From: Parapristionchus giblindavisi
Lineage: Eukaryota; Nematoda; Chromadorea; Rhabditida; Diplogasteridae
NCBI GenBank assembly: GCA_943737045.1
Contig: CALSFV010000048.1
Location: 248,001 to 312,000 of the forward strand
DNA length: 64,000 nucleotides
Direction of reading: 5' to 3'
Of this stretch, positions 20,201-22,527 are shown in pieces. The notes beneath the pieces were generated by a model. The model had not been told where the DNA came from. It worked only from the letters and a program-made list of their open reading frames with translations, and did no database searches. How positions within the stretch are numbered: position 1 is the first letter of the stretch; every line of letters starts with the position of its first letter. The position numbers and the translations under genes were made by a program.

Positions 20201-22527
20201 TTCAAGAATACGCCATAAAGAAAATAATAAATAAAATAGAAAAATATAATAAACCGAAGTCAGAGCAATTTAATTTCAAAGGTTTGACAAGATTACAAAA
20301 TAATTTTATAATAACAGCAGTCGATAAAGCATCTGGAAACTATGCCTTTACTTGCAAAAAACTATACCTTCTTTTTATGGAAAAAGAGCTAAATAATAAG
20401 AATAATGGTGAAAATACGTATGAACCAATTAATAGCTTTGATAAAGATGCAAAAATAAAAGAACATACACAATTTTTAAAGAACTTCAATCTACAACAAA
20501 TCGAAAATGCTAGTTTACCACGTATTTACGGAATTCCAAAAATGCATAAGAATCCTATTAAGTTCAGGTTTATAACAGGAGCATATAACAGTAGCCTTAA
20601 ACCAGTATCTATACAACTACAAAAGATACTAAAATTTTTACAAAATCATTTCAGAAGATATTGTAAAACAATAACTGGACATAATAAAATCAATAATTAT
20701 TTTACCATTCAGAATTCGTTTAAAGTTATACATAATGTTCAATCAATCAATAACAAGAAAACTGAAATCTTTTGCGCCGATTTTGCATCCCTCTTTACGA
20801 ATCTTCCTCATAAGATAGTACGCCAGAACATATTCTTCCTTATTGATCTTTTATTTAAAAATTCTAATTCAGAATACATTGTAATTAAAGGAAATTATAT
20901 CAGATACGACAAAACAAATAGCTCCATATCTGGCAAATCCTACCATAAAAATGATATAAAACTTATTTTGGAGTATATATTAAATAATAGCTACGCATAC
21001 TATGGAGGAGTATATTATAAGCAAAATAAAGGCATTCCGCAGGGAAACAACGCTTCACCTCAGATAGCTGATCTTACGCTAGCATCGATGGAGTTCCAAT
21101 ATATACAGAAGAAAGTTAAAATGAATCATCCACTAGCGTACTCATTAAATAAGACATATAGATACATAGATGATCTTTTGCATATATCGGAGAATACCTC
21201 AAAGTTTATTGAAATGACGAAAGAAATGTACCATCCGTCCTTAACTTTAGAACAAACAAATAGTGAAGCTAATAAATGTGCATTTTTGGATCTCAGCATA
21301 GAATTGTCCAATGGAAGAGCGACTACTAAACTCTACAACAAGACGGATGACTACAGTTTTGAAGTCATTAGATATCCACACTATCACTCAAACATTCCAA
21401 TGTATATTGGTTTGAACACATTATCGGGCGAAATACTTCGAGTTTATCGTAATTCATCTAATTTTGTCTGTTTTAAAGAAAGAGTTAAGTCATTATTTGA
21501 ATATTTCTATAAAAGAGAATACCCATTCCACATTATTCGACCGCGAATCTACAAGGTTCTAAATAAAAACCCGGCAATTAGTTTAAAATATGGAAAAAAC
21601 AACAGCAGAACTATGTTTAAAAGTTTTAGATGAAGAGTAAAAACAAAGATCAAAGTTCATACATGCAAGCCAGGAACATAGGTAGAGAGGTAGATCACTA
21701 GTTATCCCACGCTCAACCAATCAATCTCTAGTACTCTCTAGTGCTCTCTCACTTCTCCACACTCTCTCACACATACGACGCGCTCTCTCTCTACTTAGAC
21801 ATGGCAATCAAACGATCATTCCCTCATTATGTATCTTTGCTTTTATGTAAACAATATTAGTATTAGATTAGCTAAATCTCAATCAATTTTTAATCGTTCA
21901 CTCTTTAACCTTATTAAGTTCTTCTTCTTTCCTTTGAAAAATCGTATTATTGAAAACTGTCCTGTGTGGGTCATCCTACTGATGAGGCCCATCCCACACG
22001 GGTCGGTCCAGTGTCTAGGACCAGGGCCGAAACACTGGATCGTTTTTTATCTCTAGATAGTCAGTCTTTACATAGTTTCGTTTCTAACACAACCTACTTT
22101 AAAACCATTCTTTCATTACTTTAACTCTAATAATAATAATAATAATAATAATAATAATAATAATAATAATAATAATAATAATAATAATAATAGTTTTATT
22201 CAGAAAACGTAGCCGTCAATCCGGTAAAGCATGATTCTGTACCTACAAGCGATGGAGGTAAAATTTAAATCTTTAATTTAATAAAACTCTTTACTCGGAG
22301 AGTAATCAATAAAATAGTGTGTGATATGGAGCGTTGTCTATCTACATCAGAGTCTACTCTTGATTTGAAATGTGAAATTTGAAAAATGAAAATGAAATGG
22401 AGCGTTGACCACAGTCATTAGGCTGATTATAATAATGATATGAACCAATAAGTGACTGTAATTTCCAGATTCCGCATTCCCGGCTGGTACCGACTACGCT
22501 GAGGGAGACGTCGAATACCAAGTTTAG
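5240..22527 (+). CDS. TSP1-domain extracellular protein, copy T1 (5' truncated, exon 12 damaged)
   Basis: Exons with matching phases: 5240-5338, 5617-5667, 5747-5848, 6159-6206, 6274-6328, 6467-6546, 6972-7024, 7248-7342, 7550-7616, 7707-7767, 7966-8056, (8359-about 8430, donor deleted), 8751-8860, 9519-9649, 10256-10376, 12841-12963, 13178-13324, 13727-13815, 14172-14278, 14402-14481, 14760-14820, 14946-15053, 17567-17698, a microexon near 17791-17799, 22204-22257, 22469-22527 (TAG). Acceptors are mostly TTTTCAG-like. The N-terminal part is rich in Pro, Lys and Arg. Exons 22-23 encode a TSP1 repeat (SSWSDWGEWGSC...C...G-C...QSC-x3-ECP), an extracellular adhesion/guidance-type module. A Pro-rich and acidic tail follows. 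No start exon or signal peptide is visible upstream of 5240. Deletion in exon 12 removes its donor; skipping that exon would keep frame. A MITE and a 3.4-kb Penelope-like element lie in the intron before the last two exons. Confidence 0.7.
8081..8189. mobile_element. TTAA MITE family A with known empty site
   Basis: A 109-bp foldback (AGGGAG...CTCCCT ends) flanked by TTAA at 8077-8080 and 8190-8193. The equivalent position in T3 (about 42795) reads TTCTTAAACCGG with a single TTAA, so target duplication is directly visible. It lies in the intron 24 bp after the exon 11 donor. Confidence 0.9.
8495..8640. repeat. Inverted-repeat element with TGACGTCA cores
   Basis: Imperfect inverted repeats: GTTGGCA...CGAACGTGACGTCAC on the left and GTGACGTCACGTTTGTCGGC...TTTGCCGACG on the right. 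A second member is at about 8985-9120. Equivalent copies in T3 are at about 43195-43325 and 43680-43815, and relatives are at 35815-35960 and 63408-63500. It looks like a MITE family; the target site is not resolved. Confidence 0.5.
9255..9352. mobile_element. MITE family B
   Basis: CGAGCTAATCTTACTCTCCGCTCTGGCAA on the left is answered by an inverted partner ending GTTTAAAATTAGC on the right. The T3 equivalent is at about 43944-44041. It is intronic in the TSP1 gene. Confidence 0.5.
9672..9800. repeat. Degenerate tandem repeat of GGTTAACC motif
   Basis: Roughly five diverged units of about 20 bp share the pattern TGGTTAACCAA-TGGG-AACC. Similar GTTAAC/GGTTTA-rich sequence occurs nearby (8195-8260, 9978-10090). 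The T3 copy at about 44361-44490 is nearly the same. It is intronic, with no coding sign. Confidence 0.55.
10472..12664. mobile_element. 2.2-kb foldback element (FB1), T1 copy
   Basis: Long inverted repeats of about 1 kb each start GAGACCGGCTCGGTAAGACTC and end with the complement GAGTCTTACCGAGCCGGTCTC. The centre is near 11580. No open frame of useful length is present. It fills the intron between exons at 10376 and 12841. The T3 copy (45161-47356) occupies the identical position, so insertion predates the duplication. No clear target-site duplication was found. Confidence 0.75.
13345..13450. mobile_element. MITE family B
   Basis: Inverted-repeat sequence (GGCTAATTTTACTTTCCGCTCTAGCAA... with its complement ...GCCAGAGCGGAGAGC), intronic in T1. 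Relatives at the same position are at about 30855-30956 and 48034-48140. Confidence 0.45.
13963..14150. mobile_element. MITE family B interrupted by a GATCACTGCT hairpin
   Basis: Outer arms GGCACACCACGAGATAACT and CCTCCGGATGTGCCTTTC belong to the family B type. Inside lies a short hairpin whose arms read GATCACTGCT-AGGCCAG and CTGGCCTAGCAGTGATC (14007-14052). T1 and T2 have an extra CT in the left arm; T3 (48717-48763) has an exact 17-bp stem. Confidence 0.4.
15788..16797. mobile_element. 1-kb foldback (FB2), TA target, only in T1
   Basis: A 1010-bp inverted-repeat element begins TGAGGCCGCTTGCGTAAG and ends CTTACGCAAACGGCCTCA, with inner arms starting GGCACAGTGAAAAA. It is flanked by TA (15786-15787 and 16798-16799). 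The T2 copy at about 35037 reads TTTATATCATATCC without it, giving the empty site. A purine/pyrimidine-rich AGAGAG loop is at the centre. No transposase is encoded. Confidence 0.85.
17023..17444. mobile_element. TA-flanked inverted-repeat element (GGGTTGCCGG family)
   Basis: Left end GGGTTGCCGGTTCGAATT, right end ...GTTCCTGCAACTC, flanked by TA. The arms contain the shared CTGCCAGATGGAACGAATAG and its complement, with a poly-C centre at about 17214. Truncated or expanded relatives are at 35265-35517 and form the outer shell of the nest at 27478-30830. Confidence 0.6.
17447..17551. repeat. Short palindrome (CCTACGCCGTAAC)
   Basis: Inverted arms TTACATTTGCCTTACATGCC and GGCACGTAAGGTAAATGTA with inner GCCGTAAC/GTTACGGC. 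Half copies are at about 35517-35574 and about 56338-56385. Confidence 0.5.
17807..18386. mobile_element. TA-target MITE (CCGTCAAAACG ends), T1 copy
   Basis: Terminal repeat CCGTCAAAACGAAAAAAGTG on the left, matched by CACTTTTTTTCGTTTTGCCG on the right; the right end has one difference. TA lies at 17805-17806. The unit copy at about 50725 lacks it (GTGAATACAAGCC). It lies in the intron just beyond the microexon donor of T1. A better preserved copy is at 56477-57067. Confidence 0.8.
18556..18703. repeat. (TAA)n microsatellite, 5' of the Penelope-like element
   Basis: About 148 bp of uninterrupted TAA triplets. At the same place the other unit copies have only about 20 bp of interrupted TAA (170-193, 50870-50893). 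The expansion is associated with the retroelement insertion. Confidence 0.95.
18820..21633 (+). CDS. GIY-YIG endonuclease / reverse transcriptase polyprotein of the Penelope-like element
   Basis: The first ATG is at 18961 (890 aa to TGA at 21631), but the frame is open upstream to 18820, and that extension carries C-x4-C-x2-C (cysteines at 18943, 18958, 18967), the cysteine motif normally preceding this GIY-YIG. The ATG at 18961 would cut the motif, so the real start is upstream, non-AUG or spliced. Counting from ATG 18961: GIY-YIG with VYLITC (37-42), QYVGET (48-53), R56, H64, catalytic-type E109, W112 and PLGLN (121-125); a basic RGRRKKRRRK stretch; a linker with GHV-x-TG and KGTKFRL; then RT with IYGIPKMHK, motif A FCADFASLFTNLP (D607), motif B GIPQGN (691-696), motif C YIDD (735-738) and motif D CAFLDL. 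It should make cDNA at an endonuclease nick (target-primed). The frame is intact. Confidence 0.9.
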   Translation, partial: LANKTLKPSALTSVSKCSFIRKEGGKNLISLESSSDYTGYKCSRSRCMICPKMNLYTGVKSTITNDIYMTNKRFNDTCTSTFVVYLITCTVCEMQYVGETKQRLKSRMSQHRYSFSSNHLNTFLSKHFKEPFHDKESFRIDILDHATNKRELLEKELMWIKALNTAYPLGLNDSIKNFGYISENIDPLDKRTHPYYTMPMINNHRKNRGRRKKRRRKPLAKCTTPIDEIVADITLFESRELFIYGRSLSHHQLRQLELFTTDQRFSLLTHYNKYKIYSVICPHYWKNHKEPSIHRRPNEVALRIPFIGKFMDRIALSNILNSQKIKDIWKGIKIEDNDIPYISTRYTLTEPTSNIICNYGKFLRTLTADEKYKILNRNCNCSEFKEFVDKTYGHVCTGNTSIIKEESLREIINKGTKFRLENYVNNNDIIKIVNNAIEEVVQRILRKTKKSDKLGLVIGLLQEYAIKKIINKIEKYNKPKSEQFNFKGLTRLQNNFIITAVDKASGNYAFTCKKLYLLFMEKELNNKNNGENTYEPINSFDKDAKIKEHTQFLKNFNLQQIENASLPRIYGIPKMHKNPIKFRFITGAYNSSLKPVSIQLQKILKFLQNHFRRYCKTITGHNKINNYFTIQNSFKVIHNVQSINNKKTEIFCADFASLFTNLPHKIVRQNIFFLIDLLFKNSNSEYIVIKGNYIRYDKTNSSISGKSYHKNDIKLILEYILNNSYAYYGGVYYKQNKGIPQGNNASPQIADLTLASMEFQYIQKKVKMNHPLAYSLNKTYRYIDDLLHISENTSKFIEMTKEMYHPSLTLEQTNSEANKCAFLDLSIELSNGRATTKLYNKTDDYSFEVIRYPHYHSNIPMYIGLNTLSGEILRVYRNSSNFVCFKERVKSLFEYFYKREYPFHIIRPRIYKVLNKNPAISLKYGKNNSRTMFKSFR
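21961..22042 (+). ncRNA. Candidate hammerhead ribozyme with permuted, kissing-hairpin topology
   Basis: Hairpin 1 (arms 21961-21970 / 21993-22002) carries CTGATGA (21979-21985) in its loop, preceded by TCCTA and followed by GGCCC. Hairpin 2 (arms 22004-22014 / 22032-22042, 11 bp with one G-U) carries in its loop C (22015), TAGGA, CCA, GGGCC and GAA. Pairing TCCTA with TAGGA gives stem I, GGCCC with GGGCC gives stem II, and hairpin 2 is stem III. Every invariant hammerhead position is met: C3 to A9, G10.1-C11.1, G12-A13-A14, A15.1-U16.1 and C17. Cleavage would fall between 22015 and 22016. The strand order is unlike types I-III. Hammerheads are known in Penelope-like elements. Activity here is inference. 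Confidence 0.6.
22128..22192. repeat. (AAT)n microsatellite, 3' of the Penelope-like element
   Basis: About 65 bp of AAT triplets join the 3' end of the retroelement to the host sequence AGTTTTATTCAG just before TSP1 exon 25 of T1. Confidence 0.9.

Follow-up and report, generated by a model that had tools for sequence, protein, structure and literature searches.

A Penelope-like retrotransposon with an N-terminal endonuclease in the nematode Parapristionchus giblindavisi carries a probable type-CSG hammerhead ribozyme in its 3' end

The strand blocks of a hammerhead ribozyme can follow one another in six orders, which were named by Eckert et al. in 2023 (PMC10085705) along with natural examples of types SGC and CSG. 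In both types a helix joins stems I and II, and the linker of type SGC is typically three nucleotides (nt) long. Type CSG came from two similar metagenomic sequences that cleaved in vitro at the predicted site, at 0.004 and 0.026 per min, and CSG RNAs cleave during transcription. The available part of that paper's text gives no host or element for type CSG, and Penelope turns up there just once it cites other work. Here, we describe a motif of this kind in a stretch of 64,000 nt from the nematode Parapristionchus giblindavisi (contig CALSFV010000048.1, positions 248,001 to 312,000, forward strand), referred to as the window. With a probability of roughly 0.85, we consider it a type-CSG hammerhead that acts in cis and lies in the 3' end of a Penelope-like retrotransposon with an N-terminal endonuclease.

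The motif occupies positions 21961 to 22042, and its blocks come in the order C, S, G. An earlier, sequence-only reading of this DNA had described the invariant bases, stems I, II and III and a closing stem of 10 base pairs (bp), and direct inspection of the sequence finds all of these bases and helices where it had placed them:

21961-22042, plus strand: the whole type-CSG hammerhead ribozyme, as predicted from the core and helix check, covariation and a model
21961-21970, plus strand: closing stem, 5' strand (10 of 10 pairs with 21993-22002, one of them a wobble)
21974-21978, plus strand: stem I, C-block strand TCCTA (5 of 5 pairs with 22016-22020)
21979-21985, plus strand: core of block C, CUGAUGA (CTGATGA; direct check)
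21986-21990, plus strand: stem II, C-block strand GGCCC (5 of 5 pairs with 22024-22028)
21993-22002, plus strand: closing stem, 3' strand (direct check)
22004-22014, plus strand: stem III, 5' strand, with U16.1 as its last base (11 of 11 pairs with 22032-22042, one of them a wobble)
22015-22016, plus strand: predicted cleavage between C17 (22015; U16.1-C17 is 22014-22015) and U22016, from the hammerhead core; CSG-1 and CSG-2 obey the same rule (PMC10085705)
22016-22020, plus strand: stem I, S-block strand TAGGA (direct check)
22021-22023, plus strand: 3-nt linker CCA, which connects stem I to stem II at their 3' strands (from the sequence)
22024-22028, plus strand: stem II, G-block strand GGGCC (direct check)
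22029-22032, plus strand: core of block G, GAAA, of which 22032 doubles as the first base of stem III (direct check)
22032-22042, plus strand: stem III, 3' strand (direct check)

The sequence-only reading had taken this layout for a possible new hammerhead topology, but type CSG, as it has been called since its publication in 2023, already has two examples that cleave in vitro (PMC10085705); judged by its sequence, the window motif is such a non-circularly permuted hammerhead. Among the papers listed for CSG and permuted hammerheads in the open-licence PubMed Central literature, that one alone contains the term "type-CSG", and the two others listed from 2022 on that combine "non-circular permutation" with "hammerhead" are on structure-superposition tools. 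As far as this literature was searched, the carrier, number, diversity and covariation of the motif appear to be new. By description, CSG-1 and CSG-2 resemble the window motif in the order C-S-G, the core bases, the outer helix of stems I and II and a similar size (PMC10085705). They differ in being metagenomic with host and element unnamed, whereas here there are a carrier and seven families, with an extra U in three of these (D, D' and F) and a U-A cleavage site in another (E). Type SGC (HRIMA-1 and variants, PMC10085705) shares the same two hairpins, the typically 3-nt linker and the same closing helix; CSG and SGC are a single circular order with the hairpins swapped, the S-G hairpin standing first in SGC. 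Penelope-like elements are also known to carry minimal type I hammerheads (PMC7761336, PMC11167929). These likewise lie in the repeated non-coding end of tandem elements, but they keep the ordinary strand order and lack stem III, in contrast to the long stem III and pseudoknotted order of the window motif.

Functionally, we envisage two hairpins that dock through their loops. One would present I-CUGAUGA-II within the closing stem and the other UC-I'-linker-II'-GAAA within stem III, so that docking builds stems I and II and, with them, a hammerhead core of the usual kind. The closing stem and the short linker may keep stems I and II side by side, thus replacing the ordinary loop-loop contact. 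From the core we infer self-cleavage of the RNA in cis after C22015. A host ligase might then join the ends into circles. The ribozyme may trim read-through transcripts and supply unit RNA, partly in circular form.

A chance origin of the motif was rejected on the basis of a scan and a simulation. In the window, scanned on both strands for all six orders with helices of at least 4/4/4 bp, it was the sole match, and no circular permutation of I-C-II-G-III-S (types I, II and III) was found. In simulated sequence of 20 Mb (first-order Markov, derived from the window, one strand), hammerheads with helices of 4/4/4 bp or more turned up five times over all six orders, three of them C-S-G, and hammerheads of 5/5/8 bp not once. 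Membership of a known Rfam hammerhead class was rejected as well, the motif falling below the cut-off: no hammerhead in the window reached gathering level, and the best sub-threshold match, a type III hammerhead at 24.9 bits versus a cut-off of 48.5, takes the 5' strand of the closing stem for stem III. Rfam likewise reported no hammerhead up to E 5 in six further element loci. Searched against the P. giblindavisi genome, RF00163 and RF00008 gave no matches, as was the case for control genomes, so ordinary hammerheads may still be present. Elsewhere in the window, three near-identical copies of another repeat (13865, 32321 and 48575, minus strand) each contain CTGATGA and no 4/4/4-bp hammerhead.

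The hammerhead lies within the last 170 nt of the following element copy, for which the sequence-only reading had rightly suspected a Penelope-like context (RT, reverse transcriptase):

18546-18702, no strand: (TAA)n tract flanking the element copy at its 5' end (52 copies by Tandem Repeats Finder)
18700-22130, plus strand: 5'-truncated Penelope-like retrotransposon copy, unit positions 942-4371 of 4371 bp (megablast of the full unit from locus L010 against the window, 99.6%)
18820-21633, plus strand: open frame, stop to stop, 937 residues
19066-19314, plus strand: N-terminal GIY-YIG endonuclease domain, residues 83-165 (PF01541, E 2.6e-9)
19954-19962, plus strand: CxC motif, C379 and C381, located between the endonuclease and RT domains (unchanged across 11 aligned proteins)
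20548-21234, plus strand: RT domain, residues 577-805 (PF00078, E 9.4e-8)
22128-22192, no strand: (TAA)n tract flanking the element copy at its 3' end (21.7 copies by Tandem Repeats Finder)

The open reading frame (ORF) of the element thus has GIY-YIG ahead of RT, and by its domain order GIY-YIG, CxC, RT the encoded protein would place the carrier among the domain-permuted, N-terminal-endonuclease Penelope-like elements, a clade known as Naiad-like. The full unit measures 4371 bp and is often preceded in direct tandem by a 5'-truncated copy, resembling a pseudo-long terminal repeat (pseudo-LTR). N-terminal-endonuclease elements share with the carrier the N-terminal GIY-YIG domain, CxC, RT, tandem pseudo-LTRs and 5' truncation. 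Craig et al. in 2021 reportedly described this permuted clade with its N-terminal endonuclease and CxC hallmark, are said to have found it to lack canonical hammerheads, and reportedly noted a bias of its elements toward insertion into microsatellites. The window motif is non-canonical and stays below the Rfam cut-off. While (TAA)n flanks the window copy on both sides, the remaining listed flanks (loci L001-L039) are mostly not microsatellites. Other copies have a frame of 939 residues, from which the window frame departs in its last ~15 residues (about 21588-21633), as though a shift had occurred close to the C terminus. Two neighboring tandem arrays of the same element have opposite orientations (G000:C48:104500-123900; L011, L012).

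In the assembly of this genome (251 Mb, 703 contigs), a protein search gave 51 matches, best candidates only; 30 loci were returned and 26 of these scanned (L020, L025-L049). A strict C-S-G hammerhead was found in 20 of the 26. There was none in L037, L044 and L046-L049, of which the last four, forming family D, do have a C-S-G hammerhead with one extra U after CUGAAGA. Family A comprises element copies that are 91-100% identical in protein, apart from one 25-residue piece; protein identity is 61-63% in family B, 55-56% in C and 56-57% in D. In these four families the motif lies 3' of the ORF and ahead of the 3' end of the element. Two disjoint hammerhead patterns had 263 and 294 matches in the genome (the latter being the extra-U type) and none when reversed; these are counts of pattern matches, with pairing not checked one by one. 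Further groups, D' (L173) and F (L172), came from the second pattern list and were read as 121-bp pieces. Matches in type III order in L011 and L024, a single place with long insertions, were taken as chance.

Given that units are often tandem, a hammerhead in the usual circular order might conceivably form across them, with C and G from one unit and S from the next. We hold this to be extremely improbable: it would need a loop of ~4.3 kb and would not explain why there is a closing stem or a linker, and the motif is also held by short non-tandem copies (L016, L018).

Support for the C-S-G fold comes from covariation in the loop-loop pairs, which the sequence-only reading had itself named as a test. 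We compared seven families (A, B, C, D, D', E and F), six from this genome and one from a contig from elsewhere (L050). Counted outward from the core, the two crossing helices have compensatory changes at 3 of 5 positions (stem I) and 2 of 6 (stem II), and the nested ones at 9 of 11 (stem III) and 9 of 10 (closing stem). Strands were entered as read (stem III past the bulge in B and E being excluded), and therefore the full pairing, 203 of 203, is by construction; what is informative are the compensations and a strand-swap control, in which cross-family pairing was 0.55 for the closing stem, 0.82 for stem I, 0.85 for stem II and 0.71 for stem III. In an alignment of 13 distinct ribozymes from families A-D, 95.8% of 401 cells are paired and 12 of 31 pairs have changed on both sides. 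None of 500 shuffles, which ignore relatedness, reached either this paired fraction or this double-change count, and sliding the alignment by 1-3 columns left 23-46% paired. Stem II has no compensatory change in this alignment because the extra U of family D shifts it. Together with the direct check, these data bear out a hammerhead core in the order C-S-G whose two hairpins meet by a loop-loop pseudoknot.

The nested part of the structure is predicted by folding, the program being unable to form the crossing stems I and II. The minimum-energy fold of the window motif includes the closing stem and stem III (z = -3.37, 0 of 200 shuffles equally stable), and the same two stems appear in all seven families (z -3.4 to -4.8, 0 of 200 shuffles as stable). 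All seven families retain the closing stem, and the proposal that it stands in for the contact between loops I and II is supported; the linker keeps to 2-5 nt: CCA in A, CAA in C, ACA in E and GTA in F, with 5 nt in B, 3-4 nt in D and 2 nt in D'.

Both hairpins are stable alone and joined only by helices of 4-7 bp, and ordinary Penelope-like hammerheads, which lack stem III, may cleave as dimers (PMC7761336). One could thus imagine that the motif needs two RNA molecules or units in order to act, forming a dimer in which the C hairpin from one copy kisses the S-G hairpin of another. We regard this as very improbable. The 2-5 nt linker and the closing stem kept in seven families would be expected if a single molecule holds stems I and II, and therefore favor action within one molecule; moreover, stem III is long here, and the published CSG RNAs cleave during transcription (PMC10085705).

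The insertion ends of the element bear on what cleavage could be for. Among the listed loci L001-L039, 17 of 23 distinct non-tandem 3' junctions fall at unit position 4370 or 4371, where reverse transcription therefore probably starts, and the other six at 2987-4365. This fixed 3' insertion end lies 115 nt beyond the predicted cleavage site (unit 4256/4257). A linear unit made by two cleavages would start at 4257 and template only 115 nt, so that full and partial tandem copies would have to come from uncleaved multimers or circles. Reverse transcription of PAc, an anole element, starts internally (PMC11167929), and retrozymes with hammerheads pass through circles (PMC7761336).

Several observations weigh against a cleaving ribozyme. 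Two of the loci without a strict match, L037 (where stem III is broken) and L044, are not accounted for by the extra U, and of four divergent copies fetched late, all excluded from the covariation counts, L176 keeps helices of 5/5/11 bp while those of L174, L175 and L177 are broken. A single extra U separates CUGAAGA from stem II in families D, D' and F (L046:4789-4847, L173 and L172, respectively), stem I has only 4 bp in family B, and the cleavage site in family E is U-A. In 2001, De la Pena and Flores reportedly described a viroid hammerhead whose core has an additional nucleotide, at the same place as in D, D' and F. In the minimum-energy folds of B, C, E and F a local hairpin hides the CUGANGA core, and in D' a hairpin hides part of the S-G loop; either would need opening. 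None of 24 distinct non-tandem 5' junctions in L001-L039 falls at the cleavage site (4257), the nearest being at 4184, and a search for a (TAA)-joined start at this site had no matches. Finally, hammerhead cleavage of PAc is dispensable for insertion in vitro and no RNA ends were observed at its site (PMC11167929), which by analogy would speak for a minor role of cleavage.

This last result, like the position 115 nt from the fixed 3' insertion end, would also suit a conserved RNA structure that does not cleave, such as one to which the element's protein binds close to the start of reverse transcription. We judge such a role very improbable, since CUGANGA, GAAA and the U-H bases of the cleavage site are present in every family while the surrounding helices change, and binding would not need them. 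A cis-cleaving type-CSG hammerhead thus remains our preferred explanation.

Relatives were also sought outside this genome. A model built on families A-D with only the two nested stems matches the independent contig L050 (E 8.3e-6) and has no match in L051, L052 or L044; its weak minus-strand matches (E 0.015) reflect the palindrome of stem III. Of 93 stretches matching the pattern in prokaryote genome contigs, three code for relatives (L050, L051 and L052); these are filed under bacterial metagenome-assembled genomes and are probably contaminating eukaryote DNA. L050 (37% protein identity) has a type-CSG hammerhead of 5/6/4 bp with a bulged stem III extension and helix sequences of its own. 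Its contig ends repeat 119 nt, and the motif, at 546, thus lies 3' of the ORF in the circularly joined unit. There is no Pfam GIY-YIG match in L050, yet the aligned motif is present in the translation. L051 (32% identity) has a candidate in SGC order at 3331-3418, with the C block at 3391 and stems of 6/3/4 bp. By chance, matches of the 6/3/4 type, all orders, would arise ~4 times per Mb and strand in sequence of L051 composition, giving an expectation of ~0.003 in its 0.73-kb 3' end, a figure that excludes looser settings, both strands and the three loci searched. The fold of this candidate is no better than shuffles (z -0.34), and we treat it as a lead only. In L052 (26% identity), no hammerhead was found with one core mismatch allowed. 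Viral contigs had no protein relative, and none of their 119 stretches matching the CSG pattern, all scanned, has a 4/4/4 hammerhead in any order; plasmids had no protein match. A further protein search found eight relatives, the best 48% identical (proteins only).

These relatives invite a broader proposal, which we consider tentative and on balance doubtful. The domain-permuted Penelope-like clade, said to lack hammerheads, might as a rule carry non-circularly permuted ones, CSG and SGC being versions of a single two-hairpin ribozyme that differ in which hairpin comes first (CSG in L050 and in six families here; the weak SGC candidate in L051). The products would be unit RNAs in circular form; reverse transcription would start internally, go around them more than once and so make the tandem pseudo-LTRs.

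For completeness, the window carries five tRNA-Asn(GTT) genes on the minus strand (1574-1648, 23344-23416, 39535-39609, 52274-52348 and 58132-58206), four of them with equal Rfam score, as if belonging to a repeat, and one tRNA-Gly(TCC) at 60384-60455.

In summary, a topology known from two orphan sequences gains a carrier and a natural family, whose crossing helices covary and which has hundreds of pattern matches in one genome. With a carrier and many relatives at hand, its fold and its use are therefore open to study within the life cycle of the element. The motif may account for a clade said to be without hammerheads, in which it would be present in an order that standard models do not report. 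Furthermore, the fixed insertion end, 115 nt beyond the predicted point of cleavage, makes the purpose of Penelope-like hammerheads testable: the observed copies could arise from circular or uncleaved RNA, but not from linear cleaved units.

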